Shown piece after piece: positions 24,814-33,339 of a stretch of DNA of 33,648 nt. Location: assembly GCA_016180805.1 (NCBI GenBank), contig JACPAM010000274.1, forward strand, positions 1-33,648, read 5' to 3'. The translations under genes and the position numbers were made by a program. The notes below the pieces were generated by a model that worked only from the letters and a program-made list of their open reading frames with translations, did no database searches and had not been told where the DNA came from. Source of the stretch: Deltaproteobacteria bacterium. GTDB lineage: Bacteria > Desulfobacterota > Binatia > UBA9968. Within the stretch, counting starts at the first letter, position 1, and each line of letters starts with the position of its first letter.

Positions 24814-26517
24814 ATGAAGATTAAAAAAGGCCCCCGCGGCGGTCAGAAAAGAAAACGGGGGGACCGTGGAGCCAGGATAGGTCCGGAGGTCAACGCTCGC
24901 GAACTCCGGAAGAGAATCTCCGCCAAAGACGCCGCGACCTTACAGAAAATCCTCAATCTGGTCCCAGCGCCGATCTTCGTTTATCAGGGAGATAAAAATA
25001 TTCTGATTAACCCAGCCGCTGAAGGGCTCACCGGCTATACGAAAAAAGAACTGCTCGACATGAAATACTGGGAGATCGTCCACCCGGAATTTCGGGAGCT
25101 GATCAAAACTCGGGGCACCGCCCGCCAACACGGAGATAGCGTACCCCCAAGGTATGAAGTCAAGATTCTCACAAAAAGCGGCGAGGAACGTTGGTTGGAT
25201 TTTATCGGCGGGCTGATTCGGATCGCCGGCAAACCCGCAGTGATCGGAACCGTCATGGACCTCACCGAGCGAAAGCAGGCGCAAGAGCGACTGCAACTGG
25301 AATCGCAGCGACTGAACGCCCTGCGCAAGATCAGCCTGGCCATCACCTCGACGTTGGATCTCAAAGGCGTGTTGGAAGTCCTGCTTAGAGAAATCGATCT
25401 CCTGCTGCCTTACGCTGCAACGACGGTAAGGCTAAAAAACCCTCAGACCGGCAAGCTTGACAACGTTGCCTGCCGCAACGTCAACGAAGAGGAGTGGAAG
25501 CAACGCGCCGGTCAGCTAGGGGGTCGGCTCTCGAAAACCGTTCTGCGAACCAAGGTCCCGTATGCGATTCGGAACCTTAACACCGGCTCGGGGGAAATGG
25601 TTTCGGACTTTTTCCGCGAGCAGGGGTTCATCTCCTATCTGGGAGTGCCGCTGATTGCCAAAGGGGAAGTCGTCGGCATCCTCTCCTTTTTTACCCGGGA
25701 GGAACACGATTTCACCCAGGAGGAGATCGAGTTTGTCACGACCCTCGCGGGCCAGGCGGCCGTGGCGATTCAAAATTCCCAGCTTTACGAAGCCAGCAGG
25801 AAGCAGGCCGCGGAGCTGGAGGAGATCAATAAGCTCAAAGATGAGTTTCTCGGCTTTGTATCCCACGAACTCCGCACGCCGCTCAATGCGGTCATCGGGT
25901 ACACGGGCATGGTTCAGGATGAAGTGTTCGGGGCGGTCACAGCGGAGCAGAAAAAAGTCCTGGGGAAGGTGTTGGAGCACGGCAAACACCTCCTCCGCAT
26001 GATCCACAGCCTGCTCGAGGCGACCAAGATCGAGGTGGGGGCAGCCAAACTCGAAAGCCGGGAAGTAAGCTTGCGCCGGTTGTTCGACGAGCTCAAAGGG
26101 TCCTATGACACGCCCTTGGATAAGGAACTGACCCTGGATTGGGAGTATCCGGACACTTTGCCCGCCATCGTTACCGACCGGGAGAAGCTCAGACACATCC
26201 TACAGAACCTGGTGGACAATGCGATCAAGTTTACGGACCGGGGGAAAATCACGATCTCGGCGCGAGCCCTGCCCGGTAACAAGGCAGTGGAATTCAAGGT
26301 AACCGACACGGGGGTAGGCATTTCGCCGGGGATACTGCCGGACATCTTCGACATGTTCCGCCAGGGGATAAACCCAGAGAGCAGCTCTTCCCCGGGGGTG
26401 GGCTTGGGCTTGCATATCGTCAAGAAGTTCACGGATATACTGGGCGGCGAGATCGAAGTAAAGAGCCAAGTGGGCAAAGGCTCCACGTTTACGGTCACCA
26501 TACCTTCCAACCTGTAG
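24814..26517 (+). CDS. PAS-GAF-HisKA-HATPase sensor histidine kinase
   Basis: PAS region (ILNLVPAPIFVYQGDKNILINPAAEGLTGYTKKELL), GAF, FVSHELRTPLNAVIGYTG H-box, N-box LVDNAIKF, GVGLGLHIVKKF. Confidence 0.93.
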   Translation: MKIKKGPRGGQKRKRGDRGARIGPEVNARELRKRISAKDAATLQKILNLVPAPIFVYQGDKNILINPAAEGLTGYTKKELLDMKYWEIVHPEFRELIKTRGTARQHGDSVPPRYEVKILTKSGEERWLDFIGGLIRIAGKPAVIGTVMDLTERKQAQERLQLESQRLNALRKISLAITSTLDLKGVLEVLLREIDLLLPYAATTVRLKNPQTGKLDNVACRNVNEEEWKQRAGQLGGRLSKTVLRTKVPYAIRNLNTGSGEMVSDFFREQGFISYLGVPLIAKGEVVGILSFFTREEHDFTQEEIEFVTTLAGQAAVAIQNSQLYEASRKQAAELEEINKLKDEFLGFVSHELRTPLNAVIGYTGMVQDEVFGAVTAEQKKVLGKVLEHGKHLLRMIHSLLEATKIEVGAAKLESREVSLRRLFDELKGSYDTPLDKELTLDWEYPDTLPAIVTDREKLRHILQNLVDNAIKFTDRGKITISARALPGNKAVEFKVTDTGVGISPGILPDIFDMFRQGINPESSSSPGVGLGLHIVKKFTDILGGEIEVKSQVGKGSTFTVTIPSNL

Positions 26518-26585
26518 CAATATTCGTTCCCTCACCATCCAAAGCTATCCAGATCGACTGCCAAATCCCCCTTGCGCTCGTAGCC

Positions 26586-26615
26586 TTGGCAGGTTTGCCG
26601 GGTACGGTATATAAT
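26586..26615 (+). promoter_or_regulatory. sigma70-like promoter for the second histidine kinase
   Basis: TTGGCA (26586-26591), 18-nt spacer, TATAAT (26610-26615). Confidence 0.5.
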
Positions 26616-26668
26616 ATCGGCTTTCGAGGCTACCGTCGGCTTGGGATGCTGAAACCAGTGGGATTCAC

Positions 26669-28864
26669 ATGAAGAGGATCACGACTCGCGGCGAAAAGAA
26701 CAAGCCCCCAACGGAACAAGCGCCCCCGCGAAAAGCCAAGGACGGCCCCCGGCCGCCGGTAGAGAGGGCCTTACAGCGCGAAATCCTCTTCGAGCGGCAT
26801 CCGCTCCCGATGTGGGTTTTCGATGAAAAGACGCTCAGGATTCTCGCCGTCAACGAAGCCGCGGTCGGCCATTACGGTTATACGCGGGAAGAGTTTCTTT
26901 CCATGTCCGTCCAAGACATCCGTCCACCGGAACACGTGCCCGCGTTGCTCAAATACTTACATGAGCAAGAACAATCGAAGCCGCCACGAGGCTTAGGCCG
27001 AACCGAACCTTGGGTGCACCGGAAAAAAGATGGGACGCTGATTGACGTCGAGATTAGCTGGAGCCGAATCTCCCTTCAGGGGCGGAGCGCGATACTCGCG
27101 ATGGCCCACGACGTCACGGAGCGCCGCAAGAATCAGGAGCAGATAGAGCAGCACCTTGACCGCCTGCGGATCCTCCACGAGATCAGCGCTGCAGTTACAA
27201 CCAGCTTGGATCTGAATACGGTCCTAGAATTTTTTCTAAGAAAGGCCAACCGGCTTCTCCCCTATTCGGTCTTTACCATCAGGCTATGGAATGAAAAGCA
27301 ACAAGCCTTGGAACCGGTCATTTGCCGCAACCTCAACGAACGGGAGTGGAAAGCCCAGTCGGGAATAAGCAGGGGGCTGACCACGGTGCCATTCGAAACC
27401 AACGAACCCCTTGCTATTAGGCGGATTGACATGGATCCACGAGCGAGCCGGCCAGAGTTCGCAAGAAAACAAGGGCTGGTCTCCTACCTGGGAGTTCCCC
27501 TGAGCGTCAAGGGAGAAGTGATTGGAGTTCTGTCCACCTACACGAGAGAAGAACACCGGTTCAGCGGCGAGGAAATCGAGTTTTTTTCGACCCTGGCAAG
27601 CCAGGTGGCGTTCGCGATCCATAACGCAAAAATTTACGAGCAGGCGCAGCAGGCGCTAAAGCGCATGCACGCGCTCTACGAAGTGAACGCAGCCATCACC
27701 CCACTGTTAGAGGTGGGGGCAGTTCTTGACACGCTATTAAAAAAAGCCGCTGAGCTCCTTCCCTATGCCACCGTGACGATTCGCGTATTTAATAAAGACA
27801 CGGGCAAACTCGATGCGGCGGCTTGCTGGAATATCGACGAAGAGGAATGGAAATCGGAAGAGGCCAACCCCCCTCATGGCTTTGCCAGCGCGGTCTTCGA
27901 GACCAAAGCTCCGATCATCATCCGCAACGTCCAGACGGACCCTATTGTACAGAACCATGACCTGTTTCGCAGACACGGCCTGGTCTCCTGCGTCGGCGTG
28001 CCGCTGGTCAGCCAAGAGGAAATCCTGGGCACCATAACCTTTTACACAAAGGAGGAGCGTGAATTCAGCGCCGAAGAGGTCGAATTCCTCTCCACGCTGG
28101 CCGGTTTGGCCGGGATCGCGGTGCAGAAATCCCGGCTATACCAGGAGATCAAAAAGACCGCGCAAGAACTTCAGAAAGCCAACCGGGTCAAGGACGAGTT
28201 TTTGAGCGTCGTTTCTCATGAGCTTCGGACACCGCTGAATGTGGTCATGGGATACGCCGGAATCATCAAGGACAAGATTTTCGGCGAGATCAACTCCCAA
28301 CAGCACGAAGCTTTGGGAAAGATCCTGGCTCGAACCAATGACCAGTTGACGCTGGTCAATAACATTTTGTACGCGACCGCACTGGAATCGAGCGACCTGC
28401 AAAACAAGATTTTTGCCGTATCTATGGGCGACTTCTTTGAGCAGTTAAAGGAGGCCTACCAGTTTCCCGTGGGCAAAGAGGTCACCCTCAACTGGAATCT
28501 CCCGCCGCGGGGGTTAGTCGTCAACACAGACCCGGACAAGCTGAAGCATGTCCTTCAGAACCTTATTGATAACGCCATCAAGTTTACCGAAAAAGGCAGC
28601 GTGACCGTCTCCTCCCGGGTCCGCCCGGGGAGCAGGGAGCTTCAAATCCGGGTCGCCGATACCGGCATCGGTTTAACCAAGGAGCAGATGTCTCTGATCT
28701 TCGAGAAGTTTTACCAGCTCGACGGCTCGCAGACGAGACTCTACGGCGGCGTGGGACTGGGACTTTACATCGTAAAGAGATTTACCGAGATGCTGGGCGG
28801 AAACATCGAAGTGGAAAGCGCAGTTGGGAAGGGCTCGACCTTCACCGTGACGATCCCGTGCTAG
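26669..28864 (+). CDS. PAS-GAF-GAF-HisKA-HATPase sensor histidine kinase
   Basis: PAS domain, two tandem GAF domains of the same family as the upstream kinase, VVSHELRTPLNVVMGYAG, LIDNAIKF, GVGLGLYIVKRF. Confidence 0.93.
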   Translation: MKRITTRGEKNKPPTEQAPPRKAKDGPRPPVERALQREILFERHPLPMWVFDEKTLRILAVNEAAVGHYGYTREEFLSMSVQDIRPPEHVPALLKYLHEQEQSKPPRGLGRTEPWVHRKKDGTLIDVEISWSRISLQGRSAILAMAHDVTERRKNQEQIEQHLDRLRILHEISAAVTTSLDLNTVLEFFLRKANRLLPYSVFTIRLWNEKQQALEPVICRNLNEREWKAQSGISRGLTTVPFETNEPLAIRRIDMDPRASRPEFARKQGLVSYLGVPLSVKGEVIGVLSTYTREEHRFSGEEIEFFSTLASQVAFAIHNAKIYEQAQQALKRMHALYEVNAAITPLLEVGAVLDTLLKKAAELLPYATVTIRVFNKDTGKLDAAACWNIDEEEWKSEEANPPHGFASAVFETKAPIIIRNVQTDPIVQNHDLFRRHGLVSCVGVPLVSQEEILGTITFYTKEEREFSAEEVEFLSTLAGLAGIAVQKSRLYQEIKKTAQELQKANRVKDEFLSVVSHELRTPLNVVMGYAGIIKDKIFGEINSQQHEALGKILARTNDQLTLVNNILYATALESSDLQNKIFAVSMGDFFEQLKEAYQFPVGKEVTLNWNLPPRGLVVNTDPDKLKHVLQNLIDNAIKFTEKGSVTVSSRVRPGSRELQIRVADTGIGLTKEQMSLIFEKFYQLDGSQTRLYGGVGLGLYIVKRFTEMLGGNIEVESAVGKGSTFTVTIPC

Positions 28865-28909: not shown

Positions 28910-29131
28910 ACGTATCTTCTTGAGTCAGAAAGTATCAGAATACGACGTATATGAGATAGACATCTCAGTATGAGACGGTTCTTTTTGCAAGGTAAAGATC
29001 GGTCTGGAGCGGCGCCAAGACTGTCTGCTGTAATAATTCTCTTTATTTTTTAAGGGATTACCATTTGGTCACGAAGGAAACTCACGATTGGCATGGAAGC
29101 TGCGAAACAGCCAAAACTAGAGGCGTCGATT

Positions 29132-29584
29132 ATGAAGCTACGAAAACACGGCCAAGACGATTCTGGTTTTACGCTGTTGGAGGTGTTAGTCGCGATCTCC
29201 ATCGCAGTAGCGCTGATGGCGATTGCAGTGCCCGGTTTCTTATCATGGCTGCCGACGCTTCGACTTTCGTCTGCCGCGCGTCAGGTCGCTACGGATCTTC
29301 AGGTAGCGCGCATGAAGGCAATTTCGCAGAATAATTCTAACACGGTTTCGTTCAATACCACGGATGGGACTTATTCTTTTAGTCTAGGCGCGGAGTCGCG
29401 CAATCTGAATGAACTTTATCCGGGGACATCGATCGTATCCGTCTCGCCGTCAAATCCGGTTTTTTATTCTCGCGGCACTGCGAATGCCGGGATAACCATC
29501 ACTCTAAGTAACGGCGGGGCGCACAAGGTGGTGTGCGTGAAGCCTGTGGGACGGGTCAACATCGCGGACACCACCTGCGTCTGA
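29132..29584 (+). CDS. GspH/FimT-type pseudopilin
   Basis: Type III signal DDSGFTLLEVLVAISIAVALMAIAVPGFLSWLP, then AARQVATDLQVARMKAISQNNSNTVSF. Likely ATG at 29132. Confidence 0.85.
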   Translation: MKLRKHGQDDSGFTLLEVLVAISIAVALMAIAVPGFLSWLPTLRLSSAARQVATDLQVARMKAISQNNSNTVSFNTTDGTYSFSLGAESRNLNELYPGTSIVSVSPSNPVFYSRGTANAGITITLSNGGAHKVVCVKPVGRVNIADTTCV

Positions 29585-29951
29585 TCTCGCGAACCAGCGG
29601 CGAGGAGCAACCCGCTTACTTCCTGGTTTTTCCCCGGCTTCGCTGAAGACACTGCTGTAGCTCCGTTCCAAGAGCCACCTGCGCGGCCTTTAACGCTTTC
29701 GTGCCCCGGCTTTCCGTAAAGCAAGACAAAACTCCGAGAGCTCGAAGGCAAGCCGTAGCCGCGCGCCTGGAGTAGGAGGGATGGTTGTCCTCGACTTAAC
29801 CGATGACGGCCGAGGTCGCCGCCGCTGGCGTAACGGAAGCAGACCTACATCGCGGTGCTGTCGTCGTGGGGCCATCCTTTTCTAACCGTAGCATAGCGAT
29901 AGGCCGCTTTCCAAGCACGTTCCACGGCATGCCATTCAACCTCAGCCTGCA

Positions 29952-30212
29952 TTAGCGCCGGCGGAAAAGGTTAAGAAAAATCACCTCATCGGCATCCACG
30001 TCAAAAGCAAGGTGGACTACGAATGGGTCGGATCGCGCAAGCCAGCTCGGACGCTGGGGATCGTAAAAAGACTGGACACGCTGCACGCCCTGCGGGTCAC
30101 CGATCACCGCAGCCAAAAGAGCATCCAAAATATCCTCATCGGCAGGACTCATGCCGGACTCCAGGGCCCGGAAATCCCGCAGGAACTGACGCGCGAGAGT
30201 ATAGCGCTTCAA
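29952..30212 (-). CDS. RelE/ParE-like type II toxin
   Basis: 86-aa [17 protein letters not shown]...; ATGA overlap with the upstream Phd/YefM-like antitoxin. Confidence 0.65.
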   Translation of the reverse strand: MKRYTLARQFLRDFRALESGMSPADEDILDALLAAVIGDPQGVQRVQSFYDPQRPSWLARSDPFVVHLAFDVDADEVIFLNLFRRR

Positions 30213-30523
30213 ACCCCTGCTCGACGGCGGGACGGCCTACGGGCGAGGCCCCGCAGTGAGCGCACGGTCAGGGGACCTCGCTTTGGAGGGCGAATAATCT
30301 TTCCATGCTGGAGTTCGCTCCATGCCTGGTGAAGGGCCGCCTGACGTCCCGGGTCCTGGAGCACCCAAGCCAAGTCCTCTAAAAGAGCATAACGCTCAAA
30401 ATTCACGAGAACGGCCTTGGGTTGTCCACGTTTGGTAAGGACCACACGATCGCCCTTTTGTAGCTGCTCCACCAGGTCCAGCAGCTCCTTGCGTGCCTCG
30501 GTTACATTAAGGTAGCGCTCCAT
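30209..30523 (-). CDS. Phd/YefM-like antitoxin
   Basis: [54 protein letters not shown] at 30523 preceded by AGAAGG. Confidence 0.8.
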
Positions 30524-30556
30524 ACAGCCTTCTCTCTGTACAGTTTGATGAGCATG

Positions 30557-30585
30557 AGTATAGACACTCGGTCTGACCGTGTCAA
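30557..30585 (-). promoter_or_regulatory. Toxin-antitoxin promoter with palindromic operator in the spacer
   Basis: Minus strand TTGACA (30585-30580), 17-nt spacer, TATACT (30562-30557). Inverted repeat GACACtCGGTC/GACCGTGTC spans 30563-30583. Confidence 0.75.
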
Positions 30586-30635
30586 ACAAGTTTCCCGAAG
30601 CGGTTTCTCAGCACTCAGCCGGTTCAGCCCAGGCG

Positions 30636-30862
30636 GTAGCCAGCGACCAGGGGTGAGGGGCCGGGGATCCCTTTGTGTTCGAAAGGTTCTGCCAGGTGGA
30701 CAGATGCTCCATGGAGGTGTGGGGATGGACCTTCACATCGTAAAGAGATTTACCGAGATGCTGAGCGGCAGCGTTGACGTGGAAAGCAAAGTTGGGAAAG
30801 GCTCGACCTTCACGGTGAGAATACCGTATGAGACACCGCAGAGAAGAGGCAACAGGCAATAG
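30636..30862 (+). pseudogene. Decayed C-terminal fragment of a histidine kinase HATPase domain
   Basis: [34 protein letters not shown], near-identical in DNA to 28760-28860 of the intact kinase. The upstream match [10 protein letters not shown] (cf. LIFEKFYQLD) lies in a different frame. Confidence 0.8.
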
Positions 30863-30892
30863 GCTGTGAAGTTAGATTCAACTTCACTCTGT

Positions 30893-30921
30893 TTGAAAAT
30901 CCCTTGTAATATCTGTATAAT
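30893..30921 (+). promoter_or_regulatory. sigma70-like promoter of candidate small RNA
   Basis: TTGAAA (30893-30898), 17-nt spacer, TATAAT (30916-30921). Confidence 0.65.
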
Positions 30922-30927
30922 TTGCCG

Positions 30928-31038
30928 TGAGCTTTTGCTCCCAAAAGACTAGGATTGATCCGCCGAGCTTTCGGTTGGAATCGCACCCCGGATGGTTTAA
31001 GAAAAAGCCCGACTGGATCGTTCCAGCCGGGCTTTTTT
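30928..31038 (+). ncRNA. Candidate small RNA (~110 nt), promoter to intrinsic terminator
   Basis: Lies between a consensus-like promoter and a strong terminator with no credible ORF. Contains short hairpins GAGC-TTTT-GCTC and CCGA-GCTT-TCGG. Confidence 0.5.
31002..31038 (+). terminator. Rho-independent terminator
   Basis: AAAAGCCCGaCTGGA-TCGT-TCCAGcCGGGCTTTTTT; 14/15 bp stem plus U-tract. Confidence 0.85.
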
Positions 31039-31174
31039 ATGATGTGCTTTCGGGTTTCAGGCTTCAGCGTATCCGTGTCCGTTCTGAACCACCCAGCCAC
31101 CATTTTGGCAAACGGTCTTGCCCATCACATGTTTTCGACATTCCACGCTCGTCTGCTGTCGAGCTAAAATTTAA

Positions 31175-31342
31175 CCACTAATTGTGCTGACCAACTACCC
31201 CTGCCCTCAGTGCCGTCAAGCCAGCATGGATGCCGGCGCGGATTTCTTTTTCGACAAGTCACCGGAATTCGAAAAACTCAGCGACGCCCTTCAAGGGCTG
31301 ATGCGGGATCCTAAAATGCGGGCCGGCGCAAAATCGGCGTAA
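31175..31342 (+). pseudogene. C-terminal fragment of a response-regulator receiver domain
   Basis: PLIVLTNYPCPQCRQASMDAGADFFFDKSPEFEKLSDALQGLMRDPKMRAGAKSA*, resembling the beta4-beta5/K region of receiver domains. In-frame TAA immediately upstream (31172). Confidence 0.6.
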
Positions 31343-31358
31343 ACCGAGGTTGAGACGC

Positions 31359-31811
31359 ATGAACAGTGGTAACCATCTCGTCGTTTTTACCCTCGACGAT
31401 CAGAGGTACGGACTGCATCTCTCCCCCGTGGAAAGAATTGCTCGCGTTGTGGACATCACCCCCTTGCCGAAAGCACCGGACATCGTCGTGGGCGTGGTGA
31501 ATGTTCACGGACAAATCGTTCCCGTCCTCGACATCCGCAAGCGTTTCCGCTTGCCCGAGAGAGCGGTAAGAGCCAGCGACCGCCTTCTGATTGCGCAGAC
31601 ACCGAGACGGACAGTGGCCTTTCTTGTGGACATGGTGAGCGAAGTCATCGAGCTGTCGGAGGAAACGATAATTGCGGCGGCAAAGATCGTACCCGGAATG
31701 GAGTACATAGAGGGAGTGGCAAAGTTGAAAGACGGGCTGATCCTTATCCACGACATCGATAAATTTCTTTCCCTGGATGAGGAAAAGGTCCTGAGCGGAG
31801 CGCTGGGATAG
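31359..31811 (+). CDS. CheW-like chemotaxis coupling protein
   Basis: VVFTLDDQRYGLHLSPVERIARVVDITPLPKAPDIVVGVVNVHGQIVPVLDIRKRF. Confidence 0.93.
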   Translation: MNSGNHLVVFTLDDQRYGLHLSPVERIARVVDITPLPKAPDIVVGVVNVHGQIVPVLDIRKRFRLPERAVRASDRLLIAQTPRRTVAFLVDMVSEVIELSEETIIAAAKIVPGMEYIEGVAKLKDGLILIHDIDKFLSLDEEKVLSGALG

Positions 31812-31881: not shown

Positions 31882-33339
31882 ATGGAACACCTGTCGGAAA
31901 TACTGCTCTCTCGCCTGAGCGACTTCATCGCTAATCACATAGGATTGTATTTCCCGGAGGCGCGCTGGCGCGACCTGGAGCGAGGCATCCACGCCGCCGC
32001 GAGGGAGTTCGAATTCGACAGCGCGGAAGCATGTGTCCAATGGCTCATGTCCGCTCCCTTAACGAGACTGCAAATAGAGGTCTTGGCAAGCCATCTCACC
32101 GTCGGGGAGACCTATTTTCTCCGCGACAGAAAAACTTTCACGGCCCTTGAGGAAGAGATTCTGCCGCAACTGATTCGCTCCCGCAGAGGCGGTGAACGAC
32201 AGTTAAGGATCTGGAGCGCCGGGGGCTGCACGGGCGAAGAGGCTTATTCGATCGCCATGCTGTTCGACAGGATTCTCCCGGACGTAGCGAATTGGCACGT
32301 CACGATTTTGGCGACCGATATCAACCCGCGATTCCTCCGCCACGCCGCCGGCGGTAGCTACAACCACTGGTCCTTTCGCGACACTCCATCGTGGATGAAG
32401 GAGAGATACTTCCAGGAGAGGAAGAGCAGCCGCTTCGAGATCTTACCCCGGATCAAGCGAATGGTGACCTTTTCCTATCTCAACCTGGCGGAAGATAGCT
32501 ACCCGTCCCTTACGAACAATACCAATGCGATGGACCTGATTCTCTGCCGCAATGTCCTGATGTATTTCGCTCCAGACACGGTAAGAAAGGTCGTTGGAAA
32601 TCTCTATCGCTGCCTAGTGGACGGAGGCTGGCTGATCGTTAGTCCGACAGAGGTTTCCCATACCCTTTTTGGCCAGTTCGTGACGATTAATTTCTGCGGC
32701 ATGACCTTCTATCGAAAGGCTCAGAGTCTCGACTTGCAGGTTCCTACTTTCGAGTTCCGGCCTTTCTTGCCAGAAACGAAACTTGAAACTCCAAATATCG
32801 AAGTGGAGCCTGGTCTGGGAACTCTACCTCCAATGTCAGAAGTGGGAATCCCTGGGCGCGCACCTAGCCCCTCGGACAACTCGAAACCTGAAACCTCCTA
32901 CTCGCAGCCTGAGCCTAATCCGTACACCGAAGCCGTATCACTTTACGAGCAAGGCCAGTATTCCGCGGCGGTTCAAAAACTCGAAGAGCTTGTTATTCGT
33001 GGCCCCAACAGGCCTGAAGTCATGGCTCTTCTAGCCCGGACCCACGCCAATCAGGGAAAGCTCACGGAGGCGCAAGAGTGGTCTGAGAAGGCCATCGCCA
33101 CGGATAAGCTCAACCCTGGGTTTTACTATCTTCGCGCAACTATCCTTCACGAGCAGGGTCGAACTGATGAAGCCAGTCTCGCTTTAAAAAAGGCGCTTTA
33201 CCTTGATCAGAATTTTGTCCTGGCGCATTTTGCCTTGGGAAACATAGCCCGGCAGCAGGGGCGGCACAAAGAGTCGGAAAAATACTTTGGCAATGCTCTA
33301 ACGCTTCTCAAGAGGTTTTGCCGGAGGCAGATGGATTGA
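31882..33339 (+). CDS. CheR-type protein-glutamate methyltransferase with C-terminal TPRs; probable frameshift near 33309 (canonical frame continues to 33413)
   Basis: HLTVGETYFLRDRKTFTALEEEILPQL, IWSAGGCTGEEAYSIAML, DLILCRNVLMYF, followed by TPR repeats. Confidence 0.92.
   Translation: MEHLSEILLSRLSDFIANHIGLYFPEARWRDLERGIHAAAREFEFDSAEACVQWLMSAPLTRLQIEVLASHLTVGETYFLRDRKTFTALEEEILPQLIRSRRGGERQLRIWSAGGCTGEEAYSIAMLFDRILPDVANWHVTILATDINPRFLRHAAGGSYNHWSFRDTPSWMKERYFQERKSSRFEILPRIKRMVTFSYLNLAEDSYPSLTNNTNAMDLILCRNVLMYFAPDTVRKVVGNLYRCLVDGGWLIVSPTEVSHTLFGQFVTINFCGMTFYRKAQSLDLQVPTFEFRPFLPETKLETPNIEVEPGLGTLPPMSEVGIPGRAPSPSDNSKPETSYSQPEPNPYTEAVSLYEQGQYSAAVQKLEELVIRGPNRPEVMALLARTHANQGKLTEAQEWSEKAIATDKLNPGFYYLRATILHEQGRTDEASLALKKALYLDQNFVLAHFALGNIARQQGRHKESEKYFGNALTLLKRFCRRQMD

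Follow-up and report, generated by a model that had tools for sequence, protein, structure and literature searches.

A promoter and terminator-bearing leader beside a chemosensory operon probably belong to an undescribed family of leader RNAs

The window analysed here is a 33,648-nucleotide stretch of Deltaproteobacteria bacterium DNA (contig JACPAM010000274.1, forward strand), in which the interval 30893–31038 probably comprises a promoter followed by a terminator-bearing 5′ leader, representing one copy of an undescribed family of leader RNAs. Judged by sequence, the element is a full-length member of an RNA family that is absent from Rfam, and it probably works as a switch that turns sensor, transport and other genes on or off, not as a free-standing small RNA. 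The evidence readable in the DNA itself consists of membership of the family, a place before same-strand genes, a covarying hairpin and terminator, and the syntenic placement of a leader at a dCache-kinase operon in a relative.

Promoter, predicted transcript and terminator in the window

The features of the locus, in order along the window, are as follows.

30704–30862, forward strand: kinase remnant, the final 52 codons of a histidine kinase gene (HATPase_c, 1.6e-7)
30866–30887, no strand assigned: perfect 8-bp inverted repeat GTGAAGTT-N6-AACTTCAC, operator-like, shortly before the −35 element
30893–30921, forward strand: sigma70-type promoter TTGAAA-N17-TATAAT (site scan and family-wide promoter enrichment)
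30928–31038, forward strand: predicted leader RNA, type B family member (three covariance models, below)
30929–30940, forward strand: 5′ hairpin GAGC-UUUU-GCUC, predicted by folding, specific to the window copy and absent from the family alignments
30956–30983, forward strand: conserved leader hairpin (CCGCCGAGCUUUCGGUUGG) continuing into a conserved UCGCAC segment (fold and covariance models)
31001–31038, forward strand: intrinsic terminator AAAAAGCCCGACTGGATCGTTCCAGCCGGGCTTTTTT (fold and models)
31190–31343, forward strand: possible remnant (C-terminal) of a receiver-domain gene, read by eye
31359–31811, forward strand: cheW, the first intact gene behind the leader (domain search and gene calls)
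31882–33339, forward strand: cheR with TPR repeats; a second cheW begins at about 33456

The initial annotation had proposed an independent small RNA at this site, and its observation is confirmed, with promoter, interval of about 110 nt and terminator all at the coordinates that it gave. Its near-consensus promoter consists of a −35 element (TTGAAA, 30893–30898), a 17-nt spacer and a −10 element (TATAAT, 30916–30921), matching the consensus at 11 of 12 positions. Promoters of this quality occur at about the chance level in 2.2 kb (two sites found, 1.0 expected), and the feature stands above chance because it recurs in relatives: for 55 of 74 copies of the element, the 70 nt upstream hold a promoter with a score of 8/12 or more, where about 11 would be expected, and TTGAC is found upstream in 38 of these copies against an expected 4.9. 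The inverted repeat next to the −35 element has no second site in the host's own genome and none in 23 relatives.

The terminator, which had been described as strong and followed by T6, has a tetraloop and 16 pairs including one A·C mismatch, with its T6 at 31033–31038; a simple terminator scan of the window did not have it on its list. Folding of the 111-nt transcript gave −43.4 kcal/mol, compared to −30.6 ± 3.6 kcal/mol for shuffled sequences (z = −3.6), with most of the energy coming from the terminator. Between promoter and terminator no plausible open reading frame had been seen, in agreement with a codon model by which the remaining window genes are recovered but none is called from 30524 to 31358. 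The several GGA triplets remarked upon in the transcript number four, where 1.6 are expected (P about 0.05).

An RNA family with a covarying hairpin and terminator

BLAST of the interval against relatives returned mostly terminator matches; the stretch before several of the matched terminators was also window-like, reading GCCGAGCTTT-CGG..GGA-TCGCACC, followed after about 20 nt by the terminator. We refer to such window-like copies as type B, and to copies with GGCTGGGTC-N4-GATCCGGTCACATCTTTGAT before the same kind of terminator as type A; a third type, C (GCCGGCCGA..GGCAGCAACTTTGAT), seems from its sequence to bridge the two. Covariance models were built from 13 type A copies (R1) and from six type B copies (R2), with the window in neither, and a third model (R3) was restricted to the part before the terminator, again leaving the window out.

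R2 matched positions 30952–31038 of the window with 65 bits (E=1e-14), whereas against the antisense strand of the terminator region it scored 37 bits, the level reached from terminator similarity alone. The window copy was matched over its full length by R1 (30.2 bits, E=1.6e-4 across the whole genome), and by R3 with 22.6 bits (E=2.7e-5 in 224 kb). Terminator similarity was in part selected for by the BLAST query with which the search for relatives began; because R3, which contains no terminator, still matches the window, membership of the family is independent of the terminator picked by that first search.

When conservation was checked in relatives, promoter, hairpin and terminator all recurred. 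Across 71 copies, 88.5% of the pairs in the leader hairpin and terminator are standard, and double changes are seen in 13 of 16 pairs, such that both helices covary. The covariation score was 0.250 compared to 0.150 ± 0.008 for shuffled alignments, a value reached by none of 500 shuffles, although this result leans towards structure, the copies having been aligned by fitting them to the model. Sliding the pairing partners by one column lowered pairing to about 50–56%. An additional helix that would close the type A leader from the outside was considered and set aside, being plausible in single folds but showing a weak pair excess. The stretch CCGAGCTTTCGG, taken alone, resembles parts of apparent coding genes, a similarity that we judged to be chance.

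The window copy had no match in Rfam at gathering or relaxed thresholds, and searching the other copies against Rfam at E up to 0.1 returned one tRNA and nothing else. Our literature search found no description of the leader element, and BLAST of the interval against phages and plasmids gave short chance pieces only.

Host range

R1 gave at least 183 matches at E≤0.1 in the host's GTDB family, of whose 25 genomes at least 22 had a match, with at least 27 in genome G011, at least 25 in G007 and at least 11 in the host's own genome. Two good copies were found in G025, from a sister family within the order, and the remaining genomes among the 148 searched in the class had no copy at E≤0.001. Three weak hits outside the order, from a search of 297 phylum genomes, owed their scores mainly to the terminator, the conserved core being unmatched, and were left uncounted. 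By these matches, the element is common to one uncultured bacterial family; apart from the sister family, the searched genomes of the class and the phylum yielded no convincing copy. Contig L038 (Deltaproteobacteria bacterium NC_groundwater_697) carries the same DNA as contig C42 of G007 around the leader.

Copies of the element precede same-strand genes

Genes around the copies were placed with a codon-model gene caller that had been checked on the window. In 61 of 66 copies (92%), the gene that comes next shares the strand of the element, often 10–50 nt past the terminator, an excess with P=1e-13 against an expectation of 0.5 and P=5e-4 against the upstream-gene rate of 0.76 (Fisher P=0.016). 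Since the upstream neighbour is on the same strand in only 51 of 67 copies, the excess belongs to the downstream side. In twelve cases the start codon follows the terminator by 25 nt or less, and in several of them the T-run passes straight into a Shine-Dalgarno-like sequence, leaving hardly any room for another promoter, so that these genes must use read-through or a promoter inside the leader. Copies that sit just upstream of same-strand genes, sometimes with no space for a promoter between, are therefore read as 5′ leaders or attenuators. The short terminated transcript put forward by the initial annotation is well supported, whereas its independence is not, and for the family as a whole position depends on the downstream gene; the reading as an independent small RNA is only partly supported.

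Several partner genes recur across genera, namely pntA (three times), DUF7718 (twice), ORF6N (three times) and dCache kinases (four times), and solute-binding proteins also recur in different genera. The best-conserved pairing is that of a type A leader with pntA, encoding a transhydrogenase, in three genera (L162, L174 and L138). Type B leaders precede dCache sensor proteins, four of which have a Pfam dCache match, two above the curated cut-off of 45 bits (50.7 and 91.7 bits) and two below it (42.5 and 27.5 bits). Two type C leaders precede ABC_sub_bind proteins, and the main subtype is followed by a very wide variety of genes.

Tandem copies of the leader, about 0.7–4 kb apart, occur in L165, L166, L168, L167 and L176, several with a small gene of their own, some of these phage-like (ORF6N).

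Proposed mechanism and alternative explanations

The most likely reading of the element is a promoter-leader-terminator module that acts as a transcription attenuator, either riboswitch-like or protein-dependent. RNA polymerase would initiate near 30928 and transcribe a leader in which one hairpin and one single-stranded stretch are conserved; by default, transcription would stop at the intrinsic terminator, at 31038, and a signal, be it a small molecule or a protein, would permit read-through into the gene behind the leader. It is this conditional read-through at the leader terminator that we infer. Throughout the family, a conserved leader fold is coupled to a terminator before a gene, as a riboswitch would require. 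An RNA-only switch operating through an antiterminator is possible on the basis of pairing predictions: the arms of the type A hairpin could pair with those of the terminator at −10.0 kcal/mol, compared to −6.3 kcal/mol for shuffled sequence, and for the window copy, pairing between CGGUUGGAA and UUCCAGCCG is conceivable. Covariation for such an antiterminator, sought by partner swapping, was found neither in type A nor in types B and C.

Like terminator-type riboswitches and orphan candidates, the element combines a promoter, a structured conserved leader, an intrinsic terminator and a same-strand gene, and some of its partners are transport receptors. Unlike them, it shows a single hairpin and an unpaired stretch, with no multi-helix aptamer seen; moreover, its gene partners are very mixed, which is unusual for a metabolite riboswitch, and it lacks an Rfam match even at relaxed thresholds. 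More tentatively, and with doubt outweighing confidence, the family could constitute an attenuator class that has so far gone unrecognised, either riboswitch-like or dependent on a factor, and that serves as a general switch in one uncultured order, with subtypes for individual gene classes (dCache sensor kinases, substrate-binding proteins, and a broad set) answering one common cellular signal.

Among the alternatives, the one that survives best, though we consider it unlikely, is a family of trans-acting small RNAs, in which each copy would be a gene of its own, its product of about 100 nt would pair with mRNAs via the unpaired stretch (CACAUCUUUGAU in type A), and the downstream gene would be incidental. 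Most copies do have their own promoter and a strong terminator, the unpaired stretch of type A is highly conserved, and a genome may hold at least 27 paralogues. These properties are set against the downstream genes, which are 92% same-strand with many at 10–50 nt, against the conservation of gene partners across genera, and against the window copy itself, whose version of the stretch (CGCACCCCGGAUGG) is poorly conserved.

Less probable again is a dispersed or mobile promoter-terminator repeat, be it a non-autonomous element or an insulator, that would have landed between genes without any regulated function. Such a repeat would suit the high copy number, the tandem copies, and the transposase-like and toxin-antitoxin genes found among the neighbours; however, the paired helices are kept despite strong divergence of the copies, orientation relative to the next gene is fixed, and identical partner genes are found in different genera.

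Two known regulatory systems appear very unlikely, as searches of element-rich genomes did not turn up their genes. The first is control by an ANTAR-domain antiterminator, as in the eut, nas and ami leaders, which are defined by two hexaloop hairpins with A1 and G4 (PMC3369931). The new family shares with these leaders a hairpin followed by a terminator before genes, the partners of type B are two-component genes, and the terminator loop of the window (AUCGUU), when read as a hexaloop, has A1 and G4. These loop residues are, however, not kept in other copies, two hexaloop hairpins were not found, and no ANTAR protein was detected in G000, G001, G002, G011 and G013, most of which are rich in the element. 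The second, a CsrA/RsmA-binding sponge, is the least credible of all: the possible sites of this type suggested earlier recall RsmY/RsmZ/CsrB-type RNAs in offering several GGA triplets on a short transcript, but here they fall outside the small tetraloops and conserved loops and are not conserved across the family, the element has a fixed place upstream of genes, and the idea is left unsupported because csrA was not found in the assembly (91% complete), nor in two genus mates or G007.

What began as a guess at a single small RNA is now an RNA family not described before, for which about 180 copies, the range of hosts, conserved partner genes and covariance models that work are in hand. Should its leaders answer a common signal, they would make up a novel class of orphan riboswitches or attenuators, and their link to sensor kinases and transport receptors would indicate what these uncultured bacteria sense.

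The leader at the window locus

In G007 (contig C42), the gene order is tpiA, secG, tRNA-Leu, a type B leader, a dCache-PAS-GAF kinase that starts 49 nt behind this leader, a response regulator, a receiver, cheW, cheR and cheW. The order in the window is tpiA, secG, tRNA-Leu (98% identical between the two), two GAF kinases, a pseudopilin-like gene, a toxin-antitoxin-like pair, the kinase remnant, the leader, cheW, cheR and cheW. From this comparison, the window leader occupies the syntenic place, and the kinase of its relative is missing. The neighbouring CheW-CheR(TPR)-CheW locus named by the initial annotation was confirmed for the CheW and the CheR-TPR downstream, with a same-strand cheW 320 nt behind the leader in an operon that is damaged. 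The decayed signalling genes said to flank the interval were borne out on one side, by the HATPase_c tail at 30704–30862, which is 75% identical over 40 amino acids to the end of the kinase at 26669–28864. On the other side, the frame at 31190–31343 has no Pfam or PDB match and was recognised by eye only; that it is the end of a lost receiver gene is only suggested.

The leader is thus possibly orphaned at this locus. Because the kinase and response-regulator genes that would lie between leader and cheW are missing here, it may now either drive cheW-cheR-cheW or be a relic that gives a terminated RNA of about 110 nt.

Further genes of the locus deserve mention in their own right. The two tandem GAF sensor kinases (24814–28864) lie between tRNA-Leu and the chemosensory operon and are not found at this place in G007; in G001, from the same genus, a kinase with 76% identity runs into the contig edge, and the comparison of gene order accordingly leaves this genome out. 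At 29946–30585, a Phd/YefM-type antitoxin gene and a RelE-like small gene share 93.8% DNA identity with a pair on contig C103 of G007 (L169, 5408–6048), compared to only about 68% for the syntenic genes, and by this measure were probably transferred recently; in G007, the Phd/YefM and RelE-like pair sits between two copies of the leader RNA. A lone GspH-like pseudopilin gene (29093–29584) lies between the kinases and the toxin-antitoxin pair of the window.
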